A stretch of DNA of 64,000 nucleotides from Xestospongia bergquistia. Lineage: Eukaryota > Porifera > Demospongiae > Haplosclerida > Petrosiidae. Location of the stretch: the NCBI GenBank assembly GCA_963965975.1, contig OZ014412.1, positions 2,854,501 to 2,918,500 on the forward strand. The letters are read 5' to 3'. Below, piece after piece: positions 11,338 to 64,000 of the stretch. The notes under the pieces were generated by a model that saw only the letters and a program-made list of their open reading frames with translations, was not told the DNA's origin and did not search any database. A program made the translations under genes and the position numbers. The stretch's first letter is position 1, and the number at the start of each line of letters is the position of its first letter.

Positions 11338-14193
11338 TCACTGTGTCCCAGGTATAAGGACATATTTTGGTACATTTTCTTGATTGTTCTCTTTGGTATG
11401 ATCTAGTTTGGATGAGGGTATTGTTATGTGGACATCTTTAGCAAGTTCAGCTTCATCCACAGCTGGTGAATTCAATATCATTAGCAATGTCTCCCAGGTA
11501 TACGGATGTCTCTTAGTCTCATACCAGAGTTGAAACACACCAGTGATACCTTGATGGTTCTCTTCAATTTCATCTAGTTCAGGTGGAGTTAGTGCTAGGG
11601 CAGTACCTATCTCTTGTAGTTTTGTAGTTACATGTGGAGCAACATAAGTAACTAGATCTTTATGGGTTAACTCTAATATAATAAATATAATATAATATCT
11701 ACTATATAGTAAAGTTTATTAACCTGTTGTCTTCTTAATAGTTAATTTATCACTTGTTTTATTAGACAAAGTAGAGTACTGACTGTCAGGTGATGATATA
11801 TAACTTGTCATATTACCATTAGTAGGTAGTGTAGAATACATAGGTGGAATAGGTGTTGAAATATGAGAATGAGGATGTTGACTATAGTCATAAACTCGGG
11901 TACTAACATGTACATTATGATTAAGTCTGGTATATTCCTCATTAGATGGTCCATTTACAAAATGTGAAGACTGATATTGTTGTATTAAACTATGTTGTTC
12001 CATTATTGGTGTCTCATGTACTACTGTACTACATGGTACTGTGGAATGGAGATGAGGAGGAGCATTAGGACCATTAAGTAATGGAGTCACATCAGTATAG
12101 AGTTGATCTGGTTAAGTGCAACATTTGTTGATATCTAAATGTGCAGTGAAATAAAATGTGCAGTATTTTCAATATTAATATAATAATCACATCACACAAT
12201 TACTTTGACAGTATATCTTTGTTAATTGATAAAGTATCAGCAATATTAAAAGCCAATAATGCAACAATGTTACATGCATAATGGTGAGACATGAACCAGT
12301 AGCAATATCAAATCTGACGTGTACATAGACAAAGTAGCCATCATTTATAACATATGTCATTGATGATTATTAACTTCAGTTTCTTGTTTTTCATCTTTTT
12401 GTGGCTTTCTCCATTTAACTGTATATGTGATATTGAAACATTTTTATATATCTTATCAAACTTACATTTTCTTGTTTTTGCTTTATATAAGATTACAAAT
12501 GTACTTAGTATGACAATTACAGCTGCAATAATAATAATGAATACAGATATTGCCACAGCAACTACAAAAGAAACTTATAATAATATTACTAGCTACATAA
12601 AATAAACATACCAACAAAAACTGATGAACCACCTTGTACATTTCCCACTACAATAGTTATTATATGAAGTATGTAAACAAAATATATAGTAACTTACAAT
12701 TATCACAATTTGGACATAATGTACTAGTAGGTGATGGAGATATAACAATATTAGTAGTGGTTATTGAAAACACCATTGATGATGAAGTAGGAGATAGACC
12801 ATTGATATGTTGATGAATTAATTGAAAAGCTGACTCCTCATTATAATCCATATCATAAAATGTCACATTATACATACTGCTATGTACTCCTGTCACACAT
12901 TTACTAGCAGTAGTGGTATCTACTGATGTTCTGTTAATTGTAACATTCCCATTGAAATCTGTATTGAGACATTTATAATCAACATAACATCCTTGTGATT
13001 GACTTCCAGTAACAAAGTGACAAGTAAAACAAACTTCTCCAATAGTAGAGTTTGTGACTTCTAAACTACCATTTTGTACATCAAATGTAGCTAGTAGACA
13101 AGTTTCATATACATATGATAATACAATATATTATATTAACTTACTAAATACAGTAGGTTGTGATACATTGATATATAATCCACTGTTATATACTAAACTA
13201 AATGATATCAACCATTTCTTTTTATCTGGTAAGACTCCCATATTTACAGTTCCTATAAATGTATCTTCTTTAAACTGTCCACTATCTTGACCATCAACAG
13301 GAGATGTGTCATTATTAACAGGTTTTATGTGGGCGCGTACATGTAATGGTTTGTTGTCCAAAAATGTTACATTCTAAATACATTAATATAATATACATGT
13401 ATTAAACCATACAATGTATTACCTTTATAACACAAAGTATGGTCCAATTTCTATTTATCATTTCAACTGTCACAGAATATTCAGAAACGGTTACTATGGA
13501 TAGCATATAATATAAATTACATACTACTAATAATACCTGTAGGTAATGTTACTGATGTAGTACTGATCTCTGCTTCTCCAGCTATGTTAAGACCAGCTAT
13601 AGACACTGTGTAGTTACGAAATTGACTGGGACAATAGATCCAGCTGGTAGTATTACTAGTTGTAGTATATTGCGTATTATCTCCTTCATTAGTGACATTA
13701 ATAATATAACTATATATAGGTACTCCATCAAGAGAGAAAGGAGGAGACCAGGAACACTTTATACAACAGTGACCTTGTCTGATACATATTAAACCTCCAA
13801 CTTCTGACAGTTTACCTGTGTGTGTGTGTGTGTGAGAGAGATTGAAGTAATGCTGTAATTACATGGGGTTCTTCATCATCATCATCAACATTAGACCATC
13901 TTTACATGTACCTTGAATTCTCAAAGTAGCACTATTGCTACCCTCCGCAGATCCATAGGCAATACATCTCACTACTGTATTGTTATATTGAGGATATCCA
14001 GGTATTATAAGACTGGAAGTAGGTGTTCCTGCTCCGCTTGTATTGATACCAAGTTGAGTAATATTAATGTTAGTAGAAACTGTACCATTAACAAGCAAAG
14101 CAACAATTGAATTATGATGATCCACTGAACATTGGTAATATGCTAGTTGATAGACTCCAATATTAGGAGATGGAATAAACATGAACAGATCAC
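11338..14193 (-). CDS. Ig-FN3 transmembrane receptor with cytoplasmic Death domain
   Basis: Nine minus-strand exons in consistent phase: 14193-13912 (Ig-like; both cysteines present, in YYQCSVDH and VVRCIAYG), 13815-13537 (FN3, with CSWSPPFSL), 13493-13423 plus 13373-13145 (two-exon beta module), 13090-12698 (membrane-proximal module, EVCFTCHF), 12647-12612, 12561-12466 (transmembrane VFIIIIAAVIVIL), 12107-11724 (tail rich in tyrosine and proline), 11672-11338. Together about 701 residues before the TGA. The last exon begins ELTHKDLVTYVAPH and contains LTPPELDEIEEN, then LWYETKRHPYTWETLLMIL and DEAELAKDV, the helix pattern of a Death domain. The tail before it has YTRL, MYSTL and SQYSTL; the last fits the S-x-Y-x-x-L inhibitory consensus. 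The ectodomain closely matches the gene at 19937-22481, but the signalling end is different. The usual Ig tryptophan is leucine here (IVALLVNG). I could not find a signal-peptide exon, so the 5' end is incomplete. Predicted role: cell-surface recognition coupled to Death-fold signalling. Confidence 0.88.
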
Positions 14194-14412
14194 CTATATA
14201 ATAAAGAGACATGGTACATAATTTAAAATTTTAATAATGTCTTTGGACAGAAATTTAGACCAGCTTCCAATCATAACAAAGGGACAGGTCAACCAGCTTG
14301 AGGTTTGAGCTTCCTCATGTGTTTACAAGGGGTGGGATAGTCATGCCAATGTATAAAAGTGAATATAGCACATAAGCACTTTGCACACAAGCTTAAATAA
14401 TTGACAAGAAGC

Positions 14413-14865
14413 ATGTTGGAGAGCCCTTTCCCTCTCTTTGTGGCCACAGCTCCAGACAAAGTACGTGTTACAAAACCATGTTCTATATCATTGTTTTAAT
14501 TATTGTTTGCTTTGCTATAATTGCTAGTACTCCTAATTAATATTTTGAACTTGATGGATTTTTGCAGGATCTGCAAGAAATTCTATTTGTATGCATGTAA
14601 CATATGATGCTACTAATAATTCTAGCTCCATACCAGTAGAACACAACATCATGATCCATATTATTAAAAGTTTGGATTTCAAGTAGAATCTAAATAGAAT
14701 ATTAAATACATAATTATAACTTTTATAATAGATTAGTTGAATAGTGTGTTTTCAAAACAAGTGCAAAATCTGTGCATACATTTTGTTTCCTAAACGCTGC
14801 ATTTTATTTTCCCTCCTGTCTTGCAGGAGAGCAAACCTTTCATTTTGATTAAGAAAAAATAAAGT
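14413..14865 (+). other. Possible 3' exons of an unrecognised plus-strand gene
   Basis: Three short coding-like segments sit between good splice signals: one ending before gtacgt (about 14413-14459, reading MLESPFPLFVATAPDK), one following tttttgcag and ending before gtatgc (14568-14588, DLQEILF), and one following cttgcag (14827 onward, ESKPFILIKKK then stop), with AATAAA just after. The frame is not fixed, since a second frame is also open across the first segment. I recognise no family. It could be the end of an ordinary gene outside the receptor cluster, or chance. Confidence 0.22.
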
Positions 14866-14899
14866 CTAAAATAAAGCAAAATGGGTCTAAAGATTGCAC

Positions 14900-16223: not shown

Positions 16224-17479
16224 TGGTGTTGTCATTGCTGCTTCAGACTCTATTCCTTCTAAATTGGGTCATGCTTCCTCAAACACTCAATTATTAGTAA
16301 TTGAAATTACTCTTTCCTCTATTGTTCTATTTTGTTGTCAATCTGAACTACATGATTACCACTACCATTCAATTTTCTGGAACAATGTAATTATGTTTAA
16401 TGAAACAATCATCATTTTTCCTCTTACACTTATGAATTTATATGCCTCTTATCTACAAATACATCAAATGCATTATATAAACTGTATAGGATATGTCTCA
16501 ATAAATTAATAGATGTTCAATCTAATGATAGTGTTGTTCATATTATATAATGTATTAATGTAGACAGAATGTATAACAACTATTAATCCATTGAAACATA
16601 TCCTGCACTATTAGTTTACTTAAATAACATTACAATCTTCAAACTATATCAACCATTTTTTGTATTTTTTACTAAACAAGATATACATTATTGTAAGGAT
16701 CAAATCAGCAATTTATTGGTTTCCCCTTACATGTTTTAAATGACTTATACAATATATTACACAAAGATTTATTTAATTAGTGAAGTATTTCAAGTTGACA
16801 TTGTTGCTCATTAAGTATCTTATCAACATAGTTTGGATAATTCAGAAGCTATATACAGAGAAGTAATAATTCCATCTTTAGAAGTAGACGACAGTATTAG
16901 TAACGATTTAATATTTAATAACTGAGTGGGTATATAATATAATAGATTAATTTAGATAATTATAGTCAACTATAGCACAGATACATGTATATATGGATAC
17001 AAAGACCAAATATAGTAATATATGTGACAATTAGTCAAAATAATGCAAATTATTAAAATAAGCACTTCTACAAACACAACGTCTCACTGTGTGTCTGAAA
17101 AGACATTATGCCACATAAGATGTTATGAATATTATTCATAATATCATGTGTTGGTATATTACCTTTTTTCATAGAACTATAATAAAGACATAAAAAATTG
17201 TCATGAACTTTAGTTGTTTATGTGTTCATTCTATGAATTTGATTAAGTAATTACAATCTGGACATTATTCCATTAGGTATCATATGCAGAAATTGGTCTT
17301 TTGTTAATGAGCTTTATACACATTAAATTGTATTACATAATACTTGAGAAATTATTTATTATGATGATGACCAGGTTGGTCCATTTTTAACCATTAGTGT
17401 AAAAGAGTATAGGTAGTTTCATCACAGTACATTAATGAATGGTCATGTGTTAAGTTACTTGGAATGAGTCATTATATGT

Positions 17480-19105
17480 ACATACTAGAATTAAAACTGA
17501 CACACCCATTAGACTTCCTAGATAATACATTATACAATATACATAATAATACAATTATATGACAACAGTTTTCATTTTGAGAGTTAACTATTTACTAACT
17601 TATAATAATATAACTACTAGTGTTTATATTATTGTCATACTTGTTACCTCCTAAAATATCACCAGCTGTTATAAACACTTTATTAACTTGTGTATCATCT
17701 ATATAACATACATAGAGATATAATAATGATAACAAATGTACTAATGATTACTTACTGGTCAAACATTTATATGTTCCTGTAGTAATAGAAACCTTAGAAC
17801 AAACCAGTGAATATTGGATAAGTAGTAGGAAATACTGTAATAATGTAATGAAGTAATGTAATATAGGACAAGTCATTTCAAGAAATGGGTAAGTTTGTTC
17901 CAGTCTAATAATAGTGATGTTAGTAGATGATATTGCCCACTCATCTGATAATCTATCCTCATCTTCAATATCATATACATACATATTATTTATACCACTA
18001 GGTAGATCATATGTACATCCAATTACTGTACTACTACATACTGGAGAACATATCAATGATATGTTAGTACTATAGGTAGAGGAGGTTAATGAAATAAGAC
18101 AACCTTTAACAATAGCTCCTCTTATAAAATGACAGCTGTAACATATTCTACCAATATTATTTAGGTCATTATATAGGGTAGCTTCACTAATATCATATGT
18201 ACCTAATCAATGAGAAAATATTTATAAGTCATTTATAATGTACTTACTTAGTACAATTGATTGTGTTACATTAATAACAGCTCCATTTGGTAATGATAAA
18301 GTCATTCTTGTCCTCCATATTTTATTCTCAGTTATATTTACAATATAGATGGTAACAATAATAACTCCTTCATCAGTTAGAATTATTGGATTATTTAGAA
18401 ATATAGAAGAATTATCTTCATTGTATATAACAACATTTAGTTGAGCTGACTCCACTGTATGTGGACATTGTTGAAGTTCCTAATATCACAAACATGAGGT
18501 ATCTAGAGATATCATAATGTAACTTACCAAATCATATATTGTTATATTTAGTATCCAACTATTAACTGATCTGATAAAGGTAGTTGTTAAATTACTTATA
18601 TCAACTAAAATTAAAGTAGCAATTATACATTAGTAACCATAGTGATAATACCTCCTGGTACATGTAGTGATGTAGTACTTATCTCTTCTTCTCCAGCTGA
18701 GTATTACCAGATACACTAATTATATATGTACCAAATTGGCTAGGACAGTACTGCCATTTTGTAGAAGATGTGGTGTTCTGTGTAACTAGTTCTCCACCAT
18801 AAGTAATATTGATGATATAACCAGGTATAGATACTAGAAAAAAAGGAGGAGACCAAGAACAGTTTATATATTGACTTTGTACATGACATATTAAGTTGTT
18901 AACAGCAGCTAGTTGACCTAATGAGAGAAAATATAATGACATATATCAGAGAGTGTGTTACCTTGTATTCTCAGAGTAGATTTACTAAAATTAATATAAT
19001 TATTTTTAGTGAAAAATCCTGCAACGTTTCAAGTCACAACTGTATTGTTATATTGAGGGTATCCAGATATGGTAAGATTAGACTGTTGTGATCTATCTCC
19101 ACAAA
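17480..19105 (-). pseudogene. Class I receptor pseudogene
   Basis: Same exon order as the intact class I genes, but broken. The signal-peptide exon and front of the Ig exon are absent. In the remaining Ig part (about 19105-18962) the second Ig cysteine codon is a stop (TGA, 19029-19031). The FN3 exon (18917-18652) is 266 bp instead of 267, a one-base deletion near its end that shifts the frame. The exons 18604-18528, 18479-18248, 18202-17756 and 17698-17648 keep normal phase. The transmembrane exon starts at 17517 and its homology stops near 17480, with no tail exon. The membrane-proximal exon also has an odd hydrophobic end (FITLLQYFLLLIQYSLVC). Non-functional as a receptor, though some exons could still be used by recombination. 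Confidence 0.85.
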
Positions 19106-19936: not shown

Positions 19937-22481
19937 ATGACAGGACCACTCAGACTAACTTTATTGATCATCATGATAATGTTGTGTTCCAACATTATAG
20001 GTATTATGTAATGAACATTATATTAGTAGGAATTTAGTGATTCTTAGTGATATAAATAGTTGTACAAAACCATTAATTATTGTAATTGAAGTACTAGAGT
20101 TAGTAATTCTTGTATTAGTTGGAGATATAAACTATTGTAGTGATTGTATTTATTAGTTACATTCAAAACTTGAATTTAACAAAGTGAACATATATATAAT
20201 GTTAGCATATTATGTACATATGTATTAAGGTAATAATAATATAATAATTTGTGGTTAAAAGAATTTTATGATCACCTTTCTACTTTAAAATTTAGAAAAA
20301 ATGAAAGCTATTTTTTATTCATCTCATAGCTACTGTTCAGTTCATATTTATTCCATCTTCTAATATTGGAGTCTATCAACTAGCACATTACCAGTGTTCA
20401 GTGGATCATCCTAATTCAATTATTGTCTGGTATGTTAATGGAACAATTTCTACTAACTTTGAGATTAAACAACTTGGTATTATTACAAATGGAGCAGGAA
20501 CACCTACTTCCAGTCTTACTATACCTGGATACCCTCAGTATAATAATACAGTAGTGAAATGTATTGCATTTGGACCTGTGGAGGGTAATAATAATGCTAC
20601 TTTGAGAATTCAAGGTATATGCAAACATCTCTTTGTAATTATAACATTTTTCCAATTTCTCTCTCTCTGTAGGAAAACTATCAGACATTTGTGATATAAA
20701 ATGTACCAGACAGGGTCGTTGTTGTATAAACTGTTCCTGGTCTCCTCCATTCTCTCTTGATGGAGTATCTATATATGGTTATATTATTAATGTCACTAAT
20801 GAAGGAGATAATACACAATATACTACAACTAGTAATACTACCAGCTGGATCTATTGTCCCAGTCAATTTGGTACATATATAGTGTCTATAGCTGGTAATA
20901 ACTCAGCTGGAGAAGGAGAGATAGGTACTACATCAGTAACATTACCTACAGGTATTAGTAGTAGTATACATTATTTCTATTATATGGTATCCATAGTAAC
21001 CATTTCTGGATATTCTGTGACAGTTGAAATGGTAAATAGAAATTGGATCATAATTTATGTTATAAAGGTAATACATTGTAATGTTTAATACATGTATATT
21101 ATATTGGTGTATTTAGAATGTAACATTCCTGTGTAACAAATCATTATATGTACTTGCCCACTTGACTCCCATTAATAATGATGCATCTCCTGTTGATGGT
21201 CAAGGTAGTGGACAGTTTGAAGGAGATACATTTATAGGAACTGTAAATATGGGAGACTTACCAGATAAAAAGAAATGGATGATATCATTTAGTTTAGTCT
21301 ATAACAGTGGATTATATATCAATGTATCACAACCTACTGTATTTAGTAAGTTAATATATTATACTGTATTATCATATGTATATGAAACTTGTCTACTAGC
21401 TACATTTGATGTACAAGATGGTACTTTAGAAGTCATCAACTCTACTACTGGAGAAGTTTGTTTTACTTGTCACTTTGTTAATGGAAGTCAATCACAAGGA
21501 TGTTATATTGAATTTAGATGTCTCAAAACATATTTCAATGGAAATGTTACAATTAACAGAACATCAGTATATAACAGTACTGCTAGTAAATGTGTGACAG
21601 GAATATATACCAGTAACTATAATGTGACATTTTATGATATGGATTATAACAATGTACCATATACTACTGAGTATGCTGTAAAACTGACTAATCAATTAAT
21701 TACTGGACTACCTCCTATTCCTACTCTAACTACTACATCAAGTGTACCAGTTATTAATACATTGTCATTAATAACTAGTGTTATATCATCATCTCCATCA
21801 CCTACTACACTATGTACAGACTGTGATAATAGTAAGTTAATATTAATATTATAACAATTAAGTTCATATTATTACTACTACAGTGAGGAGTGTTCAAAGA
21901 GATCTAATAATAGGTAATACTAATATGATAACTTATAGTCTAGTTAACTAAATATATCACTATATATTGTAGGTAGTATTACTAGTAGTGTAGTGGGTGT
22001 GTCAGTTCTAATACTGGTATGTACTGTACTAGTACTTATAATGATATGTAGGATAAGAAGAACTAAGTCACTGAGACAAGGTATAGTTAACTACATTTTT
22101 ATATATACACTCTCTTATATAAGTTACTACTAGATACTGTACAACATCAAGTGATGATTGGTATACCTCAATATGAGAATATTACTAATTACCATCATAC
22201 TACTGAACTAGAGATGACCACATGTGCTGCATATGGTATGATATAATATTGACCATTAACAGTGTGTGTGTGTGTGTGTGTTTATATATATAGTATTGAG
22301 TAATGATCTCAGTATAATATGTTATTACATTGTAGGTACTGTACCATCTCCTGTTAATCCACTAACAGATACTGACCCTCATCAAGTTATATCTCAATAT
22401 GAGAATGTTAATATGATCACTAATATACTACCTACTACTGAACTAGAAATGAACACATGTGCTGCATATGGTGTGATATAA
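19937..22481 (+). CDS. Ig-FN3 receptor with optional tyrosine-motif tails
   Basis: The only intact receptor on the plus strand. Exons: 19937-20000 (signal peptide, MTGPLRLTLLIIMIMLC), 20330-20614 (Ig, HYQCSVDH and VVKCIAFG, with tryptophan IVWYVNG), 20673-20951 (FN3), 20997-21067 and 21117-21345 (beta module), 21400-21831 (membrane-proximal EVCFTCHFVNG, then a Ser/Thr-rich stalk), 21884-21913 (30-bp micro-exon), 21973-22080 (transmembrane, basic RIRRTKSLRQ after it), 22134-22235, 22336-22481. All phases agree, giving 581 residues. The last exon has SQYENVNMI, which fits S-x-Y-x-x-V and the Grb2-type Y-x-N, and ends TCAAYGVI. If the 22235 donor is not used, translation instead stops at 22246 after AAYGMI, giving a shorter tail. 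The start is the only ATG leading into a hydrophobic segment with a correct phase-1 donor. Likely a cell-surface recognition receptor signalling by tyrosine phosphorylation. Confidence 0.9.
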
Positions 22482-23586: not shown

Positions 23587-24125
23587 TTAATATTTTATCA
23601 CACCATATGCAGCACATGTCTTCATCTCTAGTTCAGTAGTAGATAGTGTATTAGTGATCATATTAACATTCTCATATTGAGGCATAACTTGATGAGGAAC
23701 AGTATCTGTTAGTGGATTAACAGGAGATGGTACAGTACAACAATGGATAATATCATTTACAAACTATTTTTACTATTAGTATTACCTTGTCTCAGTGACT
23801 TAGTTCTTCTTATCCAACATATCACTATATGTACTAGTACAGTACATACCAGTATTAGAACTGACACACCCACTAGACTACCTATATATTACATTAATAC
23901 ATTATACAGTATACATAATAATATAATTATATGACAACAGTTTTCATTTTGAGAGTCAACTATTTACTAACTTATAATAATATAACTACTAGTGTTTATA
24001 TTATTGTCATATTTATTACCTCCTAATATACCACTTTATTAACTAGATTATATCTAATGGAAAGACCATTCATACTAACTTTCTTCATATATCGGTAGTA
24101 GCCATGCTGCCTTCACTAGATCCAT
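23587..24125 (-). pseudogene. Class I receptor collapsed by internal deletion
   Basis: A class I signal-peptide start (MDLVKAAWLLP, ATG at 24125) is joined within about 100 bp to a shortened stalk exon, followed by a transmembrane exon (about 23889-23794) and a tail exon with PQYENVNMI and TCAAYGVI. The whole ectodomain (Ig, FN3 and later modules, about 1.5 kb) is missing. The signal exon lacks its 3' half, and the tail exon's acceptor is damaged (tag replaced before GTACTG). A deletion between signal and stalk explains the arrangement. Confidence 0.85.
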
Positions 24126-44176: not shown

Positions 44177-44179
44177 ACT

Positions 44180-48728: not shown

Positions 48729-49039
48729 CATATCACCTCTACATAGTAACCACACCCATCTAATATAAGGTACATTAATGATCGTAGATATAACTACATG
48801 TTATATATACACACATTAGTAAATGATAAACAATAACTTAATATATATAAGGTCAAAAGGTCATTTAGTCTATCAATTTCCTTTGAGAAACATCATTAAC
48901 AATATGTAATATTTATATAGTTCTCTGATTAACAATAGACTAGAGCAGTCAGTAATATTATTATAATTATATAAAATATATTAAACTAGTTAATAGATAC
49001 ATTATATGTATACTAGTAATATAATAATATTTAACTTAC

Positions 49040-50543: not shown

Positions 50544-53089
50544 TTAATATTTTATCACACCATATGCAGCACATGTGTTCATTTCTAGTTCAGTAGTAGG
50601 TAATGTATTAGTGATCATATCAACATTCTCATATTGAGGTATAACTTGATGAGGGTCATTATCTGTTAGTGGATTAACAGGAGATGGTACAGTACCTACA
50701 ATGTAATAATATATTATACTCAAGTGAGATCATTACTCAATACTATATATATAAACACACACACACACACACACACTGTTATTAGTCAATATTATATCAT
50801 ACCATATGCTACACATGTTGTCATCTCTAGTTCAGTAGTATGATGGTAATTAGTAATATTCTGATATTGAGGTATACCAGTCATTACTTGATGTTGTACA
50901 GTATCTAGTAGTGACTTATATAAGAGACTGTGTATATAAAATGTAGTTAACTGTACCTTGTCTCAGTGACTTAGTTCTTTTTATCCTATATATCATTATA
51001 AGTACTAGTACAGTACATACCAGTATTAGAACTGACACACCCACTAGACTACCAGTGATACTACCTACAATATAAAGATAATTTTATAATTATATGTAAT
51101 ATATAATATTAACTACACTACCTATTATTAGATTTTCGTGAACATTTTTTAACTGTAGTAGTAGTAGTATGTACTATATAATACAATTACATATAATGAT
51201 AACTCACTACTATCACATATGTATGTACATAGTATAGGTATGGTTAATAGTAATAACAATTATACCTGTTATAGTAGGTACTTCACTAGTACTATTAGTG
51301 ATATTAATAGATATCACAGTAGATGTTCTAGAAGGTTTTATAGATATATTACCAGTGATACTAATATCAGTTAATATAACAGCTGGATTAAAACATTTCT
51401 TGCTGCCTTGAGGTAGTACTCCATCACATGCATATAATGTCCAATTATTACTAGGAGGTATATCACTGAAACATTTAGTAAAAATAAGTTGATTGTTACG
51501 AGAGAGATCTTCATTATCAAAAAGATGAAGTCTATGATCACACTGTAGATGTAGATGTACTTCATTTATTGTACTTCCATTAACAAAGATAAACTGAAGA
51601 CATAATATATCATTTGATGTATTAGTTATAATTAACTGTTGTAGATCATGACTACCTGTTATCAAAGATAGTAATGACATATATAAAAAATTATCTAAAA
51701 CATTTAATATACTTACTGGTAACTACTGAAGTAGTTTGAAATATCTGTCTATGCTTATATTGTAAGAATATACATGTAGTAAACTTCTCTCTAGAAGGAA
51801 GATCAATTACTGATATTATAGTCTTATATCCATTAAAGTCAGTGATAATAGTAACATTAGTACTGTTATAACAATCAGAAGAGTTCTTTAAATTACAACT
51901 CATCACTGTTGTATTGATAATAGGTTGAGTACAGAGTTGAGTGAACTGTAAGAGAGTATGTCATGTGACATATTAATAGATCATGTGATAACTTACTGGT
52001 ATTATTTCAAAGTGATAGGTCCAGTCATTATCTTGACGATGTGTCAAATAATTGTTATAGGCAACATCAATTGTTTTGTCTATGAAAATGAAGTATAATG
52101 TAACAATAAATAAAGTAAAGATGCAAGCCATATAATCTAATTATTATACTATAATTATATTAATGGGGTCCTAGTATGACTAATTGAATGTAAAAAGTGT
52201 TATATTATAATAACAATATTCTTTATTCATATCTCACTTATTTTTACATCAATATATTATAATGTCTTAATAGTTTAGTCAATTTTATAATTAGAAATTA
52301 TATCACATAGTAAAGTAAACTAAAGTATAGCAGATCAAATCACTGAATTATAAAATTAACATGATCATTATTAACCTGTTTTAAACATTATAGTGTTACT
52401 GTTCAATATTCCAATTCCTGCTCCATTGATTGTAGTAATATTAAGTCTATATTCTCCATTAGTTAGGTCAATAGGACAATAAGTATAGCTAGTAGTATAG
52501 ATTACTTCTGATGACATCACTTCTTCTCCTACACTTAATGTCACTTGATACCACACACTTAACTGTCCTAATGTGAATGGAGGAGACCAGGAGAACACAA
52601 TACAACAATGATCTAATTGATAACCTTGGAGATCAGAGACAGCTCCAGGAGGACCTAAGTTGAGATGTCTTTTTAATATTTTGTTAATTATAGTAACCTT
52701 GAACATAAACAGCAGCTAATGAAGTCAATATTGGTGTGTTAACACTATGATCAGCTCTACACCCAACTCTAGTACCATTGAGTGTACTAGTTACAAAAAA
52801 AGTAGTTGAGACTTTTATACCACCATCAGGTAGATTAATATTCTTCAATGTTGGAGTTAGAGATCCACCACTAAAGATGTAATTGAATGAGAGAGTATAT
52901 CCTGTTAAGTTAGTAGCACATTCAAACGTCACATTATGATTGAGGTAGACATATTGTGTCTCTGGTACAATAGTAAAGATACCTATAAAATAATGTCAGT
53001 ATTAACATAATACTTATATTGTACTTACTAGTAACACAAGGTATAATATACCAGCTGTAAGTTAATAGTAGGATCAGTAGACCTATCAT
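50544..53089 (-). CDS. Hybrid receptor: class II ectodomain, class I/plus-strand-type tail
   Basis: Exons: 53089-53029 (class II signal MIGLLILLLTYSW), 52982-52698 (Ig: VTFECATN, VGCRADH), 52654-52376 (FN3), 52079-51997 and 51945-51717 (beta module), 51655-51266 (membrane-proximal: LCLQFIFVNG, NNWTLYACDG), 51064-50957 (transmembrane SLVGVSVLILVCTVLVLIM, RIKRTKSLRQ), 50904-50803 and 50695-50544 (tails). Phases agree if the membrane-proximal exon is joined directly to the transmembrane exon: 562 residues. A micro-exon homologous to those at 21884 and 38198 is present (51152-51122) but is 31 bp instead of 30, so including it would break the frame. A scrap of the plus-strand-type stalk remains at about 51230-51205. 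Tail one has PQYQNI and ends VAYGMI at 50792 if unspliced; tail two has PQYENVDMI and AAYGVIKY. Shows that heads and tails of the two classes are exchangeable. Confidence 0.85.
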
Positions 53090-53329
53090 CATAGCACCTC
53101 TATATAGTAACCACGCCCATTTAATATAAGGAACATTAATGATCGTAGATATAACCAGATGTCTTATGTAAACAAATTAGTAATTATTAGAAATAATATT
53201 TTAAAAATTAACAAAGGTCAAAGGTCATCTAGCCATTGGGACATGTCATTGACAATATAAAAATCATGTGGTCATCTGATTAACAATCAACTAGAGCAGC
53301 TGTTTCTTTAAAGTTTTTTATTCTTTAAT

Positions 53330-54120
53330 ATTTTATCACACCTTATGCAGCACATATGTTAATCTCTAGTCATATTCACATTCTCATATTGAGGTATATC
53401 TTGATGAGGGACAGTATCTGTTAGTAAATTAACCAGGTACCAGTACCTATAATGGATAATACCATTTACAAACTATTCCCACTCTTAGTATTACCTTGTC
53501 TCAGTAACTTACTTCTTCCTATCCAGCATATCACTATATGTACTAGTACAGTACATACCAGTATTAGAACTGACACACCCACTAAACTACCTATATATTA
53601 CAGTAATACATTATACAGTATACATATAATATAATTATATGACAACAGTTTTCATATTGAGAGTCAACTATTTACTAACTTATAATAATATAACTAGTAG
53701 TGTTTATATTATTGTCATATTTATTACCTCCTAATATACTAGCAGCTGTTATAAACACTTTATTAACTTGTGTATCATCTATATAACATACATAGAGATA
53801 TAATAATGATAACAAATGTACTAATGATTACTTACTAGTCAAATAGTCACATGGGTAATGCTGTAATCATTGAAACATAACATGATACAGGACAAGTCAT
53901 TTCAAGAAATGGATAAGTTGGTTCCAATCCAATAATAGTGATATTAGTATATGATATTGCCCACTCATCTGATAATCTATCCTCCTCTTCAATATCATAT
54001 ACATACATATTATATATACCACTAGGTTTATCATATGTACATCCAATTACTGTACTACTACATACTGGAGAACACATCAATGATATATTTGTACTATAAG
54101 TATTAATTGTTGTTATCAAT
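53330..54120 (-). pseudogene. Class I receptor 3' half, pseudogene
   Basis: Membrane-proximal exon piece from about 54080 (SPVCSSTVIGCTYDKPSG, then YVYDIEEEDRLSDEW) whose end is shifted into a stop near 53850. A stalk exon (about 53762-53712), a transmembrane exon (about 53605-53495) and a tail exon follow; the tail has lost the segment between YENVNM and the C-terminus and carries TAA in place of the AYG tyrosine (GCA TAA GGT). No signal, Ig or FN3 exon is present. Confidence 0.85.
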
Positions 54121-54129
54121 TGTTATTAA

Positions 54130-54659
54130 TACGTGTAAAATATAAATTGATAAAAAAAACAATTTAATAATTATTAATTTTAGATAACTACTATATAATA
54201 TTGTTGTTAATTTGAAATATATTTATAGTAGGCTGGTTATATTGAATTAATATTTTATAATAACATTTTAAGTATTTATATCACACCTCTCAGTAGTAAA
54301 TATTGGATCATCTCCAAATTAATAATACAGTAACACAACATACTAATATTATGATGTTAATAATATTCACATGATTTGTCTCATGACTTATTAAGTACTT
54401 TATGGTAAGCAGAGAACTGTTAAAACTTTTATTATTATTAGTAAGTACTAAATATAATAATAAAATAAATTATCACAATATCTTATATAATTTGAGTAAA
54501 TCTGTTTTGTTTATTTTAATATAAACTATTTACATTTAGTATGTTGTTAATAAGTGATATATATTTGTTTAACTTGTCCTTGTCAAATTGAACAAGATTT
54601 TATTAACATAAACACGCACACAGGAAGATAGAGATAGTGCACTGTAGTTAGTTAGTTAG
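54130..54659. other. Intergenic, no gene seen
   Basis: AT-rich sequence; the right end carries the standard class II downstream flank (acacgcacacaggaagatag, tgcactgtagttagttagtt). No exon seen. Confidence 0.5.
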
Positions 54660-54739
54660 TTATTGTCTTATAATAACACCATATGCATCACACTCCTTCA
54701 TTGTAATCATGTCAGTAATAACCTCTCTCTGTTTAGTTC
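54660..54739 (-). pseudogene. Orphan class II tail exon
   Basis: An intact 80-bp tail exon (GTKQREVITDMITMKE, CDAYGVIIRQ) with acceptor and stop, but no class II exons upstream; beyond it lies only duplicated intergenic DNA. Same situation as at 40105-40184. Confidence 0.85.
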
Positions 54740-55633
54740 CTACAATAACATATCAATGAAATATTTTATTATTTTAAGATCTTAGAATGATAATTACAAT
54801 TCCATGTGAAATTAATTATAATATTTATTTACAAACATATACAATATAGTATTATCAATAGGTTGAGTACAGATTTAAATGGATTATAGGACATAATGTG
54901 ATATGACATATTAATTATTAATAGATCATGTGATCACTTCCTGGTATTTTATAGTAATAGGTCCAATTATTATTCTGATAATAAATCATGTGACTAAGAT
55001 AGGAGACACTGACAAAAGGATCTGTGAAAAAGTTATATTTTCTTACTGATATCATTTACTTTTACATTACCTGTTATGAGCTATAAATTGTACATTATAT
55101 ATCATTTAAAATAAATCCTATATGTACAAATACAATATCATTCATTCATCTTCATTAGAACTCATTACCAATTCTAGACATTGTCATGGCTAGACTATTT
55201 ATATACTCTATCATTGATGTAGTAAGTGTATGATATTGTAGTTTTATATAATTATATACACACAATATAATAATTATATTATGTGAATATATTTGATCCA
55301 AATGTCATATTTATGAGGGAGTGTACAAGTATAATATCTTAATTGAGTTAGTAGTTGTTGTTGTCATCATATTTTCTAATGAATATTAGTAAGCTATTAC
55401 AGATATTCTACTCAGAAAGGTGTAAAATGGTGTAAAAACTTGTTAAAATTTTAATAGAAACATTCACAGACAAGTCTTATTTGAAAGATAACTCAATAGA
55501 TATAGAAATGAGTAACTACAGTAGTAATGAAAAGGAGATTTTGGTGATAATAATTCAATGTCAAATTGATAATTTATGTAAAGAATTTATCTTCTGTATG
55601 CTCAAAGTTAAGATATTTAATATAACATTATTT
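54740..55633. other. Intergenic, paralogous to 44.6-45.2 kb
   Basis: Contains a worn class II beta-module exon piece (about 54940-55030) and the segment shared with 44620-45170. No intact gene. Confidence 0.65.
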
Positions 55634-56459: not shown

Positions 56460-59050
56460 TCAGGAGGACATGGCGAAAGTTTTTACATGAACTGTCACAT
56501 CTTTTTTCTTGACTTCAGAGTACTGAGCTGTCAAAGGTCCATTATATGGAGGTACATGAAGTTCATCTCCACCATGGTATGAAGGTATAGGAGGTGGTTT
56601 GTCATTATCAACTGAGTAAGGTGGAATGAGAGTAGGAACTGTATCATATTGTAGAGATAAAGATTGTGGTTTCTTGTTTACTTCAGCATAGACAGGATTT
56701 GAATATAACTATAATGAAGATCAGATGTGACTATTAATATTAATAATTCTAATTTAAAGGAATGATGACTAACCCCTGATATTAGATTGACTTGAATGTT
56801 TTATAACTAATGGTGAGTTCAATTGCTCATTTTAATATCAAATAAATGTTCTATTTTATTTAATGTATTGTGTAGATATTGTATAGGATATAGAAACCTA
56901 ACTCCTGTTCTTAGTATTGAACATGTAATTAACAATAGTATACCTTTTCTAAGTTATTGTCTTTGATACTTCTAAAATATGATCATTGAACTGTTAACAC
57001 ATATGATTGTATTAGCTTACCTTAGAGAAACAGTTAATGGACTACCACTTGGTTTGTTATCTATATTGAGAGTTTTAAAGTTTTAAGAAATTACAAGAGT
57101 GTCTGACTTTTCTTTTGTCTTCTAATCATTATACAACCAGTTAGAACTAGTACTATAGCAATTAGTATGATAACAATAATACCTCCAACAACCCCAATAA
57201 CATAATATAGTCCAACAGATGATGATGATGATGTTGTTGTAGTGACTGTCAAAGTAGTAGTTATTTTTATTAGAATAATTAAATTAATACTTGTTACATT
57301 AATATGAAATGATCTTAAAAAGCAATAGATAGAACCTGATATATATATATAAATTTAAATGATATAATCGTTATATTTACAATTAACAATTACAAAACTT
57401 TTTTTAAAAAACATAAGACACACTAACTAAGTTTGAAGATGTAGTAATTGTCTGAACTATAATTTGTAATAAAAATATTGAAATACTTGTAGTTTCTATA
57501 TATCATTACAAGTTAATATGACAATAACATTTAAATACATTATTGTATACTTCCTAATAATTGATGTATAATTTGTCATGATTACAGTTGTAGACAATGT
57601 AGTAAGTTTACCTAATGTTGTCGATGATTTTAAATAATTGATTTTTAAACTTAATTAATATTTTTATATCAAACAGTCTTACTATGATATTCAGATGATG
57701 TTATTACAATAGTTGTAGATAATCTACTAAGTATACCTGATGATGTTGTTGTTTCTAAATAATTGATTACTTTAAAATTAAATTATTTTTCATATCAAAC
57801 AATCTTACTATAATATTGAGATGATGTTGCTATATCTCTAGTACTAGTAATAACTGGTTTTTCATCAGGAATAATAACTGTATGAGAAGTAATCATATCA
57901 CACTTTATAATAACATTTCAATATTTTAATAACCTTTAGTCTTATTAGGGTATCCATCTCCTAGTATATTAACTGGTACCACTGTTATAATGTAGGTATA
58001 TCCAGCTAGTACTCCAGTCAATGTAATGTTAGTAACAGTAGTTATATTAACAGTTAGTGAACCTGATATGTTATGATAGACTTTGTAGTACAAGAGAGGA
58101 GGACTAGAGGAGAGAGGAGGAGACTAAAGGAAACTAAAATAATATTAAGTGATTATTAATAATGTTATACCTCCCATAAAATAGAAATATTATAGTCCTC
58201 TGTGTTATTAGTGATAGTATAAGTGATTAGTGGTACAGCTTGTAGAACTAGTAAAGCATATTACTTAAGATATTAAAACTGTTCAATTCTTACCATCCAG
58301 AGTGAACATAGTATATTGACTATAGGGTCCTAATCTATTGATAGCATCAGACCCTGCTACTCTGAATTGATACTCTACTGACTGAGAGAGACCAGTAGAT
58401 ACTTTAATAGTGGTGATATTACTACCAGTACTAGGACTATTGATCAATATATTATCGCTGGTTGTCCTGATCTCAACAGTGTAGTCAACTATACAGTTAG
58501 GGTAAAGAGTAGGAGGTGACCAGTTTAGAATAACTGAAGTGTTTGTGAGAGCTATAAAACCCAGTCCTGTAGGAGCATAACTTGGAGGGCCTTATAATTA
58601 TAGTACATGTTAGTTATATATATGATACTGTTAGTGACATACCTGATATCATAATAGTACAAGTCATTGAATCTCTATCTTCACACTTGACTTGCACTCC
58701 ATTCTTATGAGTAGTGGCAATAAAGCTTAAATTAGTTGTTATTCCAGGATTGTTAACACTCACAAGAGCAGCAGTAAATCCAGTATTACCAAAATGAATA
58801 ACTTTTCCAGAACGTACTGTAGCAATTTTATATGATAGAGGAGAATACCAAACTGCTACATTGCCTGATATTGTACAAGTGACTTCTCCTTGTGTCTGTG
58901 GACATACTCCATGATTACAATCTATACTTGTAACTGAAGCTTCTATTTTTACTATAAGAAATAAACTTCAAATATTGTATTATAATATATTAACTCACTT
59001 ATGATAAGTAAGAGAATAGAAATCAAATATGTTGTAGCACACTTATTCAT
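56460..59050 (-). CDS. Class III Ig-FN3-FN3 receptor with multi-tyrosine tail
   Basis: Exons: 59050-58999 (signal MNKCATTYLISILLLII), 58951-58643 (Ig-like: GEVTCTISG, VQVKCEDRD), 58590-58294 (FN3: VILNWSPPTL, QFRVAGSD), 58247-58171 with 58123-57934 (second FN3, split by a phase-0 intron: SILWESPPLSS, TVVPVNILGDGYPNKT), 57877-57809 and 57754-57683 (Ser/Thr stalk), 57245-57108 (transmembrane IGVVGGIIVIILIAIVLVL), 57060-57021, 56971-56944, 56708-56460. Phases agree if the transmembrane exon uses a gtcaga donor (47-bp intron): 506 residues. The tail has PVYAEV, LQYDTV (fits L-x-Y-x-x-V), PPYSVD, PPYNGP and AQYSEV with many prolines, suiting SH2 and SH3 partners. Its last bases align with the tail exon at 36239-36340 but one frame off. 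Different family from classes I and II. Confidence 0.85.
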
Positions 59051-60031
59051 TTTGTCTAAATGGATCATTAACTTATGATATTATAATAGACTTAATTATG
59101 AAGATGATGTTTTTGTGGGTTAAGTTTATATATTATAGTGTAATATCTATTTATAATAACACATGGACTACTAAATAAATAATACACACCTCTCAAACCA
59201 CAACAATAGTGTAATTCTCTGTATTCTTTGTAATTCTTTGTGGTACAGCCTGTTGTACTAATTAATGAAGTATTCATAACTTTTTTATAAAAACTATACA
59301 TATTTTCTTCACACTGTTCAGTGTAAAGGCACTTCCTAAATATTAACTATACACAGTGATGTATCACGTCCTGTTAGACCTATAGGCATTTTCTGATGGA
59401 AATATCATCTATAATGTTGGTAATGTCATACTTAATAATGATCAATGTTAAAACTGTAAAATTACTAATTATGTACAGAGATACCTCATAACTGTTGGTT
59501 ATAAAGGAAATGAAGTACATAAGTTATGATAGTTAATGTAAACCACATGTTATATTACTCATTGTGTGGTCATTGTTAAGTACTATATATGACCTGATTT
59601 ACAATAAGGGACCACTTCTGTCAAAGCATTTGTAATGTGACTTATGAAAAAAGACCACTTTTAAAGCACTTCAAAAACAGTTTTATATGCATACATGCAG
59701 TTACAATGAACAGTTGTCCATATATAGCAACTGTGTATGTACAAAAACTTTTACATGTTATATCAGATAACAGAATATACTTAAGATGTTAAATGATGTA
59801 AACTTTGTTAGTTCAATGATAGTAATAATGTAGTAACATAAAAAAAAAAATAATAATGGAGTAATATAAATAAAGTATTCACTTTATTATTTATTTTGTT
59901 ACCAATAAGTAATAACTTAATAATAACTTTTCTAAGTGAGTATTTTTATTCTTTATAACAAAACATTAAACATACTGTCATGACATAAATTGACTGACTT
60001 TGTATAAAAAAGTTTTAAGTAAAAAATGTTC
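59051..60031. other. Intergenic, no gene seen
   Basis: Separates the two class III genes. No exon supported; a 69-codon open frame at 59092-59301 has no recognisable features. Confidence 0.55.
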
Positions 60032-61868
60032 TTAATTAATATATCCATATGCAGTATTTCCTTGTAATTCAATGATCTCTTTCTGTTCTGAGGTCTCTGG
60101 TAACTTAACATCATCATATATCGGACCTGATTGGATAGTAGAGTGGGTGGGGTGTCTTTATTGGAGCTCCTCCTCCTTATAATGAGATAGACAATAAATG
60201 TAGTAATAACAGCAGTTAATAGAGAAGAGAGGAACATACTAACTGGAATACTTACTGTAATGTAAACAATTCAGTAATGTATCATGTTTATTTTATAAAT
60301 CACCTGATAAATATAATGTTTGTTGGTTTACATTAGCTATAATAGAGATTTATCTAATTGTAGTTTATTATAGTGAAGTCATACTTGGACAAACAGCAGT
60401 AGTTATTGGTGAACATACTGTCACTGTCAAAATAAGGAATTAATATTAAAATCTTAATATTAAAAATGATTATAATTTTGTACTTACTAACAGTTGATAT
60501 ATCACTTGTAAAGACTACAGCTGTAGAAGAAGGACTAGGCTCTTTTACTGGTGTTACTAATACTAAATAATATGTAATTTTTATTATAAATTATATTGAT
60601 CACTCTTACAATGTTCAGATCATAATATTACAACACTAATAGTTGTAATTATTAGTTCTTTAGGAATAATAACTATATGAGAAGTAACCATATCACACTT
60701 TATAATAATATTTAAATAACCTATAGTCTTATTAGGGTATCCATCTCCTAGTATATTAACTGGTACCACTGTTATAATGTAGGTATATCTAACTAGTACT
60801 CCAGTCAATGTAATGTTAGTAACAGTAGTTATATTAATAGTTAGTGAACCTGATATGTTGTGATAGACTTTGTAGTATAAGAGAGGAGGACGAGAGGAGA
60901 GAGGAGGAGACTAAAGGAAACTAAAATAATATTAAGTGATTATTAATAATATTTTACCTCCCAAAAAATAGAAATGTTATAGTCCTTTGTGTTGTTAGTG
61001 ATAGTATAAGTGATTAGTGGTACAGCTTGTAGAACTAGTAAAGCACATTACTTAAGATATTGAAACTGTTTGATTCTTACCATCCAGAGTGAACATAGCA
61101 TATTGACTATAGGGTCCTAATCTATAGATAGCATCAGACCCTGCTACTCTGAATTGGTACTCTACTGACTGAGAGAGACCAGTAGATACATTAATACTGG
61201 TGATATTATTACCAGTACTAAGACTACCAATCAACATATTATCACTGGTTGTTCTGATCTCAACAGTATAGTTAACTATACAGTTAGGATGAAGAGTAGG
61301 AGGTGACCAGTAGAGAGTGACTGAAGTGTTTGTGAGAGCTGTAAAACCCAGTTCTGTAGGAACACTACTTGGAGGACCTCATAATGATATACATGTTAGT
61401 TATATATATATGATACTGTTAGTGACATACCTGATATCGTAATAGTACAAGTCATTGAACTTCCATCTATAGCTGTGGCATCACTACACCTGACTTGTGT
61501 TCCATTCTTATCAGTAGTGGCAGTAAAACTTAAATTAGTTGTTAGTCCAGGATTGTTAACACTCACAAGAGAAGCAGTAAACCCAGTATTAGGACCATTA
61601 AAAACTTGTCCCAAAGTACTTACTGTAGCAATGGCAGTATCTGATGGAGGAGAATACCAATGTATTAAACTGCCATTTATTGTACAAGTGACTGCTCCTT
61701 GTATCTGTGGACACACTCCATTATTGCAGTCTACACTTGTAACTGAAGCTTCTATTTTACCTTGAGTAAGTCGTAGTACATTTTATTTTATATTATGTCA
61801 TCAACTCACTTACATACAAGAAGGATGATAATAAAATTTACAGATGCAGTAAACATGTACTTCTCCAT
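60032..61868 (-). CDS. Class III Ig-FN3-FN3 receptor, tail frame broken
   Basis: Exons: 61868-61814 (signal MEKYMFTASVNFIIILLV), 61760-61431 (Ig-like: GAVTCTINGS, VRCSDAT), 61377-61081 (FN3: VTLYWSPPTL, EYQFRVAGSD), 61034-60958 with 60910-60721 (second FN3), possibly 60672-60637 (weak gtgttg donor), 60562-60488 and 60423-60385 (stalk), then 60254-60032 (transmembrane and tail). Up to the membrane the frame is intact and very close to 56460-59050. In the last exon the transmembrane frame (LLTAVITTFIVYLIIRRRSS) runs on without tail motifs, whereas the next frame gives GPIYDDVKLPE, IIELQG and NTAYGYIN before a stop at 60032. One missing base near the C-run at 60145-60155 would reconcile them. 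Either a recent inactivating deletion, a sequence error, or two alternative tails. Confidence 0.75.
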
Positions 61869-62289
61869 TTTGAGGAGAGGTATGATTGTGGGTTGAGTTA
61901 ATGATAGTGTGTATAAGAGTGTATTGTTATAAGTTTTATATATTTGTTAATGTGAGTCTTGCTATACAACAATACAACAGTCATATATTAATTTATTTAA
62001 AAGTGATATATGATAATGTATATAAAATACAACAAGGCAACAACAAGCATTAATATTTTAATCAAAAATCTTTGAGACATAAAATATTAACAAATGAGGT
62101 ACATTAATGATCATAGATATAACCAGATGTCTTATGTAAACAAATTAGTAATTAATAAAAATAATAAATGAAAGAATAAATATGAAATTAAAGGTCATTT
62201 AGCTATTAAATTCCCCTGGGACACCCACATCATTGACAATATATGAAATGTTTATATAGTCATCTGATTAATAGACCAGAACAGCTGCT

Positions 62290-62440
62290 TCTTTAAACTT
62301 TTAAATTTTTTAATATTTTATCACACCATATGCAGTACACATGTTCATCTCTAGTTCAGTAGTAGGTAGTGTATTAATGATCATTTTGGAGAACACATCA
62401 ATGATATGTTAATACTGTAGGTAGAGGTGGTTAATATGTA
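62290..62440 (-). pseudogene. Class I tail and membrane-proximal scraps
   Basis: A class I tail end (cacaccatatgcagtacaca, ttcagtagtaggtagtgtat) is fused directly to a fragment of the membrane-proximal exon ('ttggagaacacatcaatgat'). The deletion joint lies near 62383. The surrounding 61869-62579 holds no other exon. Confidence 0.75.
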
Positions 62441-62579
62441 TTATATATGTTGTTCATATGTGAAATATATTAATTAAACTTGTTCATTAAGACATTGTCG
62501 TATTGAACAACAATTTGCTGACATATTAAAAACACACACACACAGGACGAGAGAGAGTACACTGTAGTTAGTTAGTTAG

Positions 62580-64000
62580 TTATTGTCTTATAATAACACC
62601 ATATGCATCACACTCCTTCATTGTAATCATGTCAGTAATAACCTCTCTCTTTTTAGTTCCTATAATAATATATCAATGAAATATTTTATTATTTTAATAT
62701 TGTAGAATGATATTTAATACTTCAATATCAAATTAATATTAAACCAAGAACCCTAACCAATCAACGTTAGACCCTACACATATCAATTTTACATTGAAGT
62801 ATGTCAGTTATAATATTATCATAAATATTATATTACTATTAATGTTTAACTCACTGTTAATGTATCTTCTATAACAAATGATAACTGTAATAATATTAAC
62901 TAATAATGATATTACCATGACAACAGCTGATATAGTAAACAAAGTCACTACATGTTGTAGATGATAATGATAACAGATAATATCACATAAGATATATATC
63001 ACTTACCACTAATGGTAAACTCATTATTATAATATTGTAATATATCAGTAGATATGGTAGTAATAGATATAACTAGAGATAAGTATATTAATTGTTTGAT
63101 AAATTTAAACAAAGATATAGTTATATACACATACAAAGCTAACCCCTCCTCCCAGAGATGTACACAAGATAATATATATATTAACAATAGTACATTATAT
63201 AATAGAGGTCATTACCTGTTACAGTAGGTATTTCACTAATACTATCAGTCATACTAGTAGATATCACAGTAGATGTTCTAGAAGGTTCTATAGACACTCT
63301 GCCAGTGATAGTAATATCAGTCAATATAACAGCTGGATTAGAACATGTATCACTGACATTAGCTAGTAGTACTCCATCATATACATATAACATCCAATTA
63401 TTACCAGGAGGTATATCACTGAAACATTTAGTAAATGTAAGTTGATTGTGATGAGAGAGATCTACAATATAATGATACCCAGCCACAATCAGAATATAAT
63501 GTTTATCTTCATTTCTCATATCTAGATGTATTTTAGTTATTTGTCTGCCATGAACAAGTTTAAATTGAAGACATAGGACATCGTCTGAAGTATTCCAAAC
63601 AGTGATACCTTGTAGATCATGAGTACCTTTAAATAAACTATTAATAATATATACAAACACATATAATATACTTACTGGTAACTACTGGAATAGTTTGAAA
63701 TATCTGTCTACTCTTATATTGTAAGTATACAAATGTATTGAACTTCTCTCTAGGAGGAAGATCAATTACTGATATTATAGTCTTATATCCATTAGAGTCA
63801 GTGATAATAGTAACATTAGTACTGTTATAACAATCAGAAGAGTTGTTTAAATTACAACTCATCACTGTTGTATTCATAATAGGTTGAGTACAGAGTTGAG
63901 TGAACTGTACGAGAGTATGTCATGTGACATATTAATAGATCATGTGATCACTTACTGGTATTTTAAAGTAAAAAGTCCAGTCATTGTTTAGTCGATAAAT
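62580..64000 (-). CDS. Class II receptor, 5' part beyond window
   Basis: Exons seen: from the right edge to 63956 (beta module part 1, incomplete), 63904-63676 (part 2), 63626-63216 (membrane-proximal: LCLQFKLVHG, TKCFSDIPPGNNW), 63072-63007 (stalk), 62947-62855 (transmembrane), 62659-62580 (tail GTKKREVITDMITMKE, CDAYGVIIRQ). All phases agree with the complete class II genes at 29238-31631 and 46433-48728. Signal, Ig and FN3 exons must lie to the right of the window. In the membrane-proximal exon the D-N-D-N-I-Y-C segment of the other copies is replaced by IVAGYHYIVDLSHH, so a cysteine is lost. Confidence 0.88.

Follow-up and report, generated by a model that had tools for sequence, protein, structure and literature searches.

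Receptor genes in the window

We analyzed a stretch of 64,000 nucleotides from the demosponge Xestospongia bergquistia, hereafter the window, which corresponds to positions 2854501-2918500 of contig OZ014412.1 (C2) in a 146-Mb genome assembled into 15 large contigs and six small ones. By translation, splicing and mapping, ten receptor genes were found within or nearly within its borders, together with one gene cut by the right end and at least nine relics (Table 1), in agreement with a preliminary description that had proposed at least ten receptor genes of three classes and many relics. As modelled, the encoded proteins have a leader and, farthest from the membrane, an Ig-type domain, then Fn3 and Fn3-like domains, one transmembrane (TM) segment and a short cytoplasmic part; closely related heads end in different tails, which are exchanged as modules. 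Full-length matches between different genes mostly had E values of 1e-20 or better, far beyond chance, with the weakest fragments near 1e-3; the queries came from the window itself, so that each also matches itself. Exon searches covered the whole genome, and contiguous reading covered 260 kb (C2:2715001-2975000). All results come from one assembly, gene counts rest on exon matches, and some tandem copies may be haplotype duplicates.

Genes of classes A and B share the plan signal peptide (SP)-Ig-Fn3-D3a-D3b-D4-TM-tail, with D4 in one exon and introns mostly in phase 1, apart from a phase-0 intron inside D3. Most of these introns are about 40-110 bp long and a few are 200-300 bp, and the D4/TM junction is in phase 1 in all eight A/B models of the window. 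Class C follows another plan (Ig-Fn3-Fn3-TM-long tyrosine tail, without D3 or D4), and the single exon plan first proposed for all classes therefore holds for A and B only. An open reading frame (ORF) conserved between D4 and TM in class B ("TM_B") was set aside as an exon and is probably an intron, because D4 joins TM without it; its ratio of nonsynonymous to synonymous substitution (dN/dS) of 0.42 makes the intron reading less certain.

The Fn3 domains of classes A and B and of class C are both predicted to adopt the Fn3 fold: the A/B profile matched titin (E 7e-11), DCC (E 2e-5) and then other Fn3 proteins in PDB, and a Pfam fn3 match above the cut-off was found only in class C (5e-11). For the distal domain of classes A and B, the best PDB match of the profile was DSCAM (E 0.0025), and all seven matches up to E 10 were Ig-superfamily proteins, the other six at E 0.11 or worse. 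In Pfam, the distal domain matched Ig_3 in class B at E 0.018, below the cut-off, with no match for class A or C; that of class C is named Ig by position only. D4 was modelled as a seven-strand sandwich with a mean predicted local distance difference test (pLDDT) score of 69.9 from 10 sequences, and nearly all of the 50 listed Foldseek matches were Fn3 domains (best E 1.7e-3, none at or below 1e-3). D4 is thus probably Fn3-like, and a wholly new fold was rejected on account of these matches; the best PDB match of the D4 profile (E 0.055) was not a receptor, and the profile scored 0.3% against the Fn3 profile.

Table 1. Receptor genes, relics and other features of the window, numbered from its first nucleotide
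Feature	Position	Strand	Exons and remarks
36-bp tandem repeat	88-722		About 18 copies, open in several frames
B2-type gene, multi-tyrosine and Death tail	11338-14185	-	Ig 14185-13906; Fn3 13815-13537; D3 13493-13145; D4 13090-12698; TM 12561-12466; multi-tyrosine exon 12107-11724; Death-domain exon 11672-11338; spliced model without stops; Death identity by family profile
Class B relic	17450-19100	-	Ig broken, tail cut
B2-type gene, opposite strand, QYENV/AYGVI tail	19937-22484	+	Probable leader about 19937; Ig 20335-20614; Fn3 20673-20951; D3 20997-21345; D4 21400-21831; TM 21973-22085; tail exons 22124-22484; one tail join not made by script
Class B 3' relic	23590-24035	-	TM and tail exon
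Class A2 pseudogene	24400-26389	-	Broken exons, one stop
Class B gene	26629-28776	-	SP to QYENV...AYGMIKY tail; one D3-internal join not made by script
Class A2 gene	29238-31634	-	Short tail ECDAYGIIIRQ
Class B gene	33077-35239	-	QYENV...AYGVIKY tail; one D3-internal join not made by script
B2 D3 relic	35445-35675	+	Single exon
Relic, broken SRCR fragment and displaced class C tail exon	36344-36923	-	Tail exon IIYDEL...VIYTDI
Mosaic gene, class B Ig/Fn3 with B2-type D4/TM/tail	37570-39834	-	Tail exon ends AYGVIKY
Stray short-tail exon	40108-40182	-	
Two class B relics and class A D3 fragment	43107-46168	-	One relic with leader and truncated Ig, the other with stops
Class A2 gene	46433-48731	-	Short tail
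Mosaic gene A1, class A head with B2 TM/tail module	50544-53092	-	SP 53092-53029; Ig; Fn3 52654-52376; D3 52079-51717; D4 51655-51266; TM 51064-50952; tail exons 50914-50803 and 50695-50544
Relics, class A 3' end and class B 3' half	53328-55007	-	
Class C gene	56460-58949	-	Ig, Fn3, Fn3; TM 57245-57094; tail 56708-56460 (YAEV/YDTV/YSEV); two joins not made
Class C gene	59953-61870	-	Probable leader MEKYMFTASVNFIIILLVC in ORF 61946-61809; Ig 61758-61431; Fn3 61377-61067; Fn3 60910-60689; TM and tail from ORF 60270-59956
Class B fragments	62313-62434	-	
Class A2 gene	62583-64000	-	5' half beyond the window (whole gene C2:2919431-2917083)

Exchange of tails between heads

The DNA of the window genes, named below by their approximate positions, contains two mosaics. 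As far as the end of D4, the 53 kb gene belongs to class A (79-84% identity to A2 genes); from the following intron on, and into the 3' flank, it is of B2 type (85.4% and 88.3% identity, the partners being the 39 kb and 20 kb genes). The partner switches within about 26 bp after D4. In the 39 kb gene, Ig/Fn3 is 87.8% identical to the class B 28 kb gene and D4/TM/tail is 90.3% identical to the B2-type 20 kb gene. In both mosaics the switch points lie in introns beside D4. Furthermore, the 14 kb and 20 kb genes are 86.4% identical in head DNA and have unlike tails, that of the 14 kb gene being multi-tyrosine plus Death. These results uphold the earlier claim that closely related heads end in different tails.

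The same was observed on a larger scale. Among the 19 genes of the 260 kb having Ig, Fn3, D4, TM and tail, A and B heads are 22-29% identical and their tails 83-87%, a value close to the 84-88% between tails within a class, and Ig identity shows no relation to tail identity (r=-0.05). Across the locus, 95 rows were kept of 150 matches to the B2 D4 exon; the next tail was of AYG type in 39 (26 of them at 614-670 bp), multi-tyrosine in 20 (16 with Death) and Death alone in one. The D4 exons before AYG tails are 68-100% identical to one B2 query and those before multi-tyrosine tails 62-94%, with exons above 90% present in both groups. Since the D4/TM junction is in phase 1 in the eight A/B models of the window, a tail swapped there by unequal exchange would stay in frame. 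Together, our data indicate that the predicted tails are modules (YENV plus AYGxI, short AYGxI, multi-tyrosine plus Death, and class C multi-YxxV/L/I) that recur on different heads. The paired-receptor architecture suggested at the outset, with similar heads, different tails, a tandem cluster and many relics, is supported by the mosaics, the 19-gene identities, the multi-tyrosine exons followed by Death exons and the B2 D4 exons.

Tail types

The preliminary description had counted five tail types. The tails do differ, but YENV and AYGxI were rejected as two types because both lie in one exon (PQYENV...CAAYGVIKY), and the multi-tyrosine and Death segments are consecutive exons of one gene. In 26 stop-free, near-full-length tail exons (broken copies excluded), the YENV residues are kept at 90% or more and A-Y-G-x-I at 80% or more. 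A GT within the AYG codon would allow the first tail exon either to stop at AYGMI, with a stop codon, or to be joined to a further exon. Class A2 genes have a shortened tail with AYG[VI]I and without YENV. YENV would fit a Grb2-type SH2 site, and AYGxI a YxxI site rather than a strict immunoreceptor tyrosine-based inhibition motif (ITIM). Motifs of the form I/V/LxYxx[VLI] were found in the tails of class C and in a more distant C2 locus described below.

A multi-tyrosine exon is followed by a Death exon in 24 of the 37 rows examined (of 75 matches), 16 of these at exactly 60 bp. Three class A-type D4 exons have another Death-type exon within 1 kb; two of these were read, and the one scanned matched Pfam Death at E 0.031. 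Outside the window, at C2:3692001-3697500, a B-type Ig/Fn3 and a B2-type D4 are followed by a first tail exon and then by four more tail exons of QYENV type in tandem (in one the motif is QYEDV), spaced about 250 bp apart; a fifth lies 0.6 kb further. Tail matches with similar spacing occur near C2:3594033 and 3715776. In the neighbouring class C tail at C2:2923600-2922860, several exons together hold about nine YxxV/L/I motifs; the copy at 56460-56708 of the window is shorter and is cut after YSEV.

The proposed tandem ITIM-like tail at 36.4-36.6 kb had to be abandoned. It is a displaced class C tail exon, of the kind that ends the class C tail in neighbouring copies, beside a broken SRCR fragment. 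For 36.4-36.9 kb, the idea of one SRCR receptor ending in tandem ITIMs was rejected in favour of a relic of two genes. SRCR fragments occur in or beside the receptor array at window 36675-36923 (Pfam SRCR E 6e-7), C2:2803800 and C2:2732528 (tblastn).

The Death-domain exon

The Death exon of the window alone gave a single Pfam match, Death at E 0.068, below the cut-off, and its single-sequence AlphaFold2 model had a pLDDT of 42. A nine-sequence profile of this exon and eight genome relatives (27-36% identical) matched FADD Death domains at E 5e-6, with weaker PDB matches to CRADD (0.13) and RIPK1 (0.48), and scored 94% by hhalign against the seven Death exons of the genome recognised by Pfam. 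Of six relatives scanned, four matched Pfam Death (E 0.0009-0.03), none over the cut-off. Judged by the wider family profile, the exon is predicted to have the Death fold, with FADD as its nearest match. All 35 Death-exon matches at E<=1e-20 lie within the receptor complex on C2. The Death-tail protein had no match at E<=1 to the TNFR cysteine-rich ectodomain. Death domains are numerous in this genome (the best 150 of 983 candidates were scored), and a report on another demosponge gives 128 DEATH-domain genes (PMC12909245).

Extent of the receptor complex

The cluster had been placed at 11338-64000, where it is indeed present, but it continues beyond 64,000: receptor exons recur across about C2:2.73-4.37 Mb, approximately 1.6 Mb, and the window is a slice of this region. 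The Ig_B exon gave 149 matches (best 150 of 159 candidates scored), 143 of them at C2:2.736-4.359 Mb, of which 124 are near full length and stop-free as counted by eye. All 70 class A D4 matches fall within C2:2.74-4.33 Mb, all 75 multi-tyrosine matches lie on C2, and so do 143 of at least 150 AYG tail matches by our own count (best 150 of 203 candidates scored). Class B D4 had 151 matches, some of which form a distant group (about 35-44% identity) located at C2:0.44-0.77 and 1.84-2.37 Mb. A further cluster of class C receptors lies at C2:5.92-6.25 Mb, and stray exon matches were found on contigs C1, C9 and C14. Based on stop-free exons counted by eye (about 124 Ig_B and some 30 class A D4), we estimate some 150 Ig/Fn3 receptor genes. 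Within the 260 kb read contiguously, A2 and B genes alternate in tandem, a block containing class C repeats about 94 kb away, and fully joined stop-free models were obtained by script for 21 of 50 multi-exon groups.

In the more distant cluster at C2:0.44-0.77 and 1.84-2.37 Mb, the locus at C2:546501-549500 runs from a D4-like exon through a TM to an ORF with VVYQEL and VLYSDI. In the second class C cluster, ORFs carry NEAYGIT, NTAYGYIN (at the ORF end) and ENVAYSTM, so that the AYG motif recurs outside classes A and B. At C2:4.085 and 4.150 Mb, pairs of identical-score matches lie about 65.4 kb apart (4084719/4150111 and 4086332/4151724), which could mean that a segment was duplicated very recently or that the assembly retains two haplotypes of it. 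Finally, atp9 was matched (PF00137, E 3.5e-11), along with three tRNAs, in the first 3 kb of contig C21 (18,997 bp); among animals, this points to demosponge mitochondrial DNA, in line with the early-branching animal supposed from the letters of the window.

Divergence and selection

Within class B, mean identity is 73% for Ig, 86% for Fn3, 90% for D4, 95% for TM and 84% for the tail, making Ig the most variable domain. The proportion of synonymous differences (pS) is 0.21 in the Ig_B and Fn_B sets versus 0.05-0.08 in the sets TM_A1 and T_A2 (long tail), to which class A genes contribute as well, suggesting that the 3' end is younger or was homogenised by conversion; the contrast is less clear in class A (Ig 0.25, Fn3 0.09, D4 0.14, TM 0.09).

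Selection was estimated by the bootstrapped Nei-Gojobori method (NG86) in 18 exon sets, as paralogue comparisons whose pairs are not independent. The class C Ig exon had a dN/dS of 2.02 (1.19-3.81), with 0.3% of replicates at or below 1, and was the only set with an interval above 1; the class C Fn3 exons gave 0.78 and 0.80, and D3b_A 1.84 (0.94-5.35). Fn3_A and Fn3_B (0.54 and 0.49) and the short A2 tail (0.46) are, by these estimates, constrained, and D4 gave 0.68-0.96.

These values bear on two alternatives. One is a largely non-functional expansion, in which a recombination-prone tandem array holds few working genes and the rest is debris. The long-tail exons (1.05-1.09) and TM_A1 (near 1) would fit it, as would the 29 of 50 multi-exon groups without a fully joined stop-free model, some of which, the 28 and 35 kb genes among them, lacked no more than a single D3 join. 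However, the kept YENV and A-Y-G-x-I residues in stop-free tail exons, the retention and fixed spacing of the Death exon behind the multi-tyrosine exon and the constraint on the Fn3 exons and short A2 tail make this alternative very improbable. The other is a homophilic family for cell adhesion and cell identity in development, whose tails tune cytoskeletal or survival signals with no role in non-self recognition. Ig and Fn3 domains are typical of adhesion proteins, and DSCAM and DCC are among the PDB matches; yet Death tails, many relics and turnover in copy number and tails would be unusual for developmental adhesion genes, and the class C Ig ratio above 1 also argues against such a family, which we consider improbable.

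Proposed function

Taken together, these data lead us to propose, with a probability of roughly 0.6, that the window lies inside an approximately 1.6-Mb demosponge complex, evolving by birth and death, of paired cell-surface recognition receptors that swap tails, with non-self recognition as the likeliest use. In the mechanism we envisage, the variable Ig end would bind a ligand and bring receptors together; YENV/AYGxI tails would then be phosphorylated and recruit SH2 or PTB adaptors, and multi-tyrosine/Death tails could in addition nucleate FADD/caspase- or NF-kB-type complexes via FADD-like adaptors. Because related heads carry different tails, we propose that similar specificities may be wired to different outputs. 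The tails may be functionally opposed, and the locus may serve self/non-self or microbe recognition, both as first suggested; the non-self in question would be microbes or conspecific cells.

Several findings weigh against this proposal. The window Death exon and its two close copies score 1.2% by hhalign against the seven Pfam-Death exons of the genome, their three-copy alignment had no PDB match, and Pfam found no Death match in two of the six scanned relatives, of which one is a close copy, so the Death call depends on the wider profile. An upstream search found no recognisable signal-peptide exon for the only Death gene of the window, and the argument for Death tails therefore draws mainly on copies outside it. 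A strict ITIM, which has a requirement at the residue at position -2, was rejected for the AYG tails, where this position is A or D, and either type of tail could be an activating one. Exchange also has its limits: in the 19 genes, identity in D4 correlates with identity in TM (r=0.66), so these exons often travel together, and 35 of the 95 B2 D4 exons have no recognised tail within 1.8 kb. A dN/dS above 1 was not found for Ig_A (0.57) or Ig_B (0.75; 0.51-1.08), and class C Ig, as one of 18 sets, is borderline after correction. The unjoined exon groups and the possible haplotype duplication in the single assembly point the same way.

Non-self recognition could take more than one form. The receptors could be a repertoire for microbes and symbionts, germline-diversified so that a filter feeder can separate food, symbiont and pathogen. 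The copy number, birth-and-death pattern and excess amino-acid change in class C Ig speak for this form, as do other expanded sponge immune families such as the NLRs described in a study of Dysidea avara (PMC12909245); we regard it as rather doubtful. Alternatively, all or part of the receptors might decide whether sponge individuals fuse or reject each other, as Hydractinia Alr does, with Death tails rejecting and tyrosine tails licensing tolerance. The many linked genes of Ig type with their relics, the modular heads and tails and the FADD-like tail would suit such a complex, and a title cited in a sponge graft study concerns DD2, a potentially pro-apoptotic molecule whose level rises when allografts are rejected (PMC5450542). 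However, more than 100 genes would exceed what a matching system seems to need, and genes for adhesion, apoptosis or aggregation factors were reported not to be significantly enriched in the Amphimedon graft transcriptome (PMC5450542); we consider this form unlikely.

Within our preferred reading of a tail-swapping recognition complex, a further step is tentative: the locus might be a sponge analogue of the leukocyte receptor complex, in which one germline complex of 1.6 Mb governs self/non-self in a non-bilaterian and varies its outputs along with its specificities, phosphotyrosine or Death-domain modules and even tandem tail cassettes being recombined onto heads. For the molecular basis of sponge self/non-self recognition, a mapped recombining receptor complex whose related heads carry Death-domain and phosphotyrosine tails offers a single interval in which genotypes can be set against the outcome of grafts and the response to microbes. 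If the proposal is true, animals outside the bilaterians also have paired-receptor logic, including one specificity wired to a death pathway, and diversification can fall on the tails of receptors.

Comparison with known recognition systems

The sponge literature, as far as the accessible parts of three reports go, treats NLRs, SRCR proteins, Ig-TIR genes, adhesion molecules and aggregation factors (PMC12909245, PMC5450542, PMC11999971). Among the titles and opening lines of abstracts listed by our search, which left out most subscription journals, no description of a sponge Ig/Fn3 receptor cluster was found. Aggregation factors are secreted proteoglycan cores with other domains, and no aggregation-factor-type domain was present in the five proteins scanned. 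They have been proposed as self-recognition molecules of sponges (PMC5450542). Sponge Ig-TIR (TLR-like) genes likewise join an Ig domain to an innate-immune signalling domain, but with TIR rather than Death, and 6 genes are reported in that species, not a megacluster (PMC12909245).

The cytoplasmic Death domain, nearest FADD by profile, recalls Death receptors and FADD-type proteins. Different from these, the sponge ectodomain is of Ig/Fn3 type without a TNFR match, and a multi-tyrosine segment precedes the Death domain.

Vertebrate paired receptors form tandem birth-and-death clusters. As with KIR/LILR, CEACAM and FcR-like receptors, the sponge genes have related predicted ectodomains with different cytoplasmic tails, which agrees with the definition of paired receptors by very similar ectodomains and different signalling parts (PMC3533184). 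The likeness is one of architecture, and it differs in that the A/B tails lack a strict pair of ITIM and immunoreceptor tyrosine-based activation motif (ITAM), the alternative output being a Death domain.

Closest in kind is the Hydractinia Alr complex, for which at least 41 loci are given (PMC11067881). Again the likeness is one of architecture: in each case an early-branching animal has a large linked cluster, rich in pseudogenes, of single-pass receptors of the Ig superfamily, as far as the sponge receptors can be predicted. Compared with Alr, the sponge locus has more loci by exon count (taking the Ig_B exons counted by eye) and extends over 1.6 Mb. Its membrane-proximal domains are of Fn3 type, its tails include some with a Death domain, and heads that are unrelated have exchanged tails.

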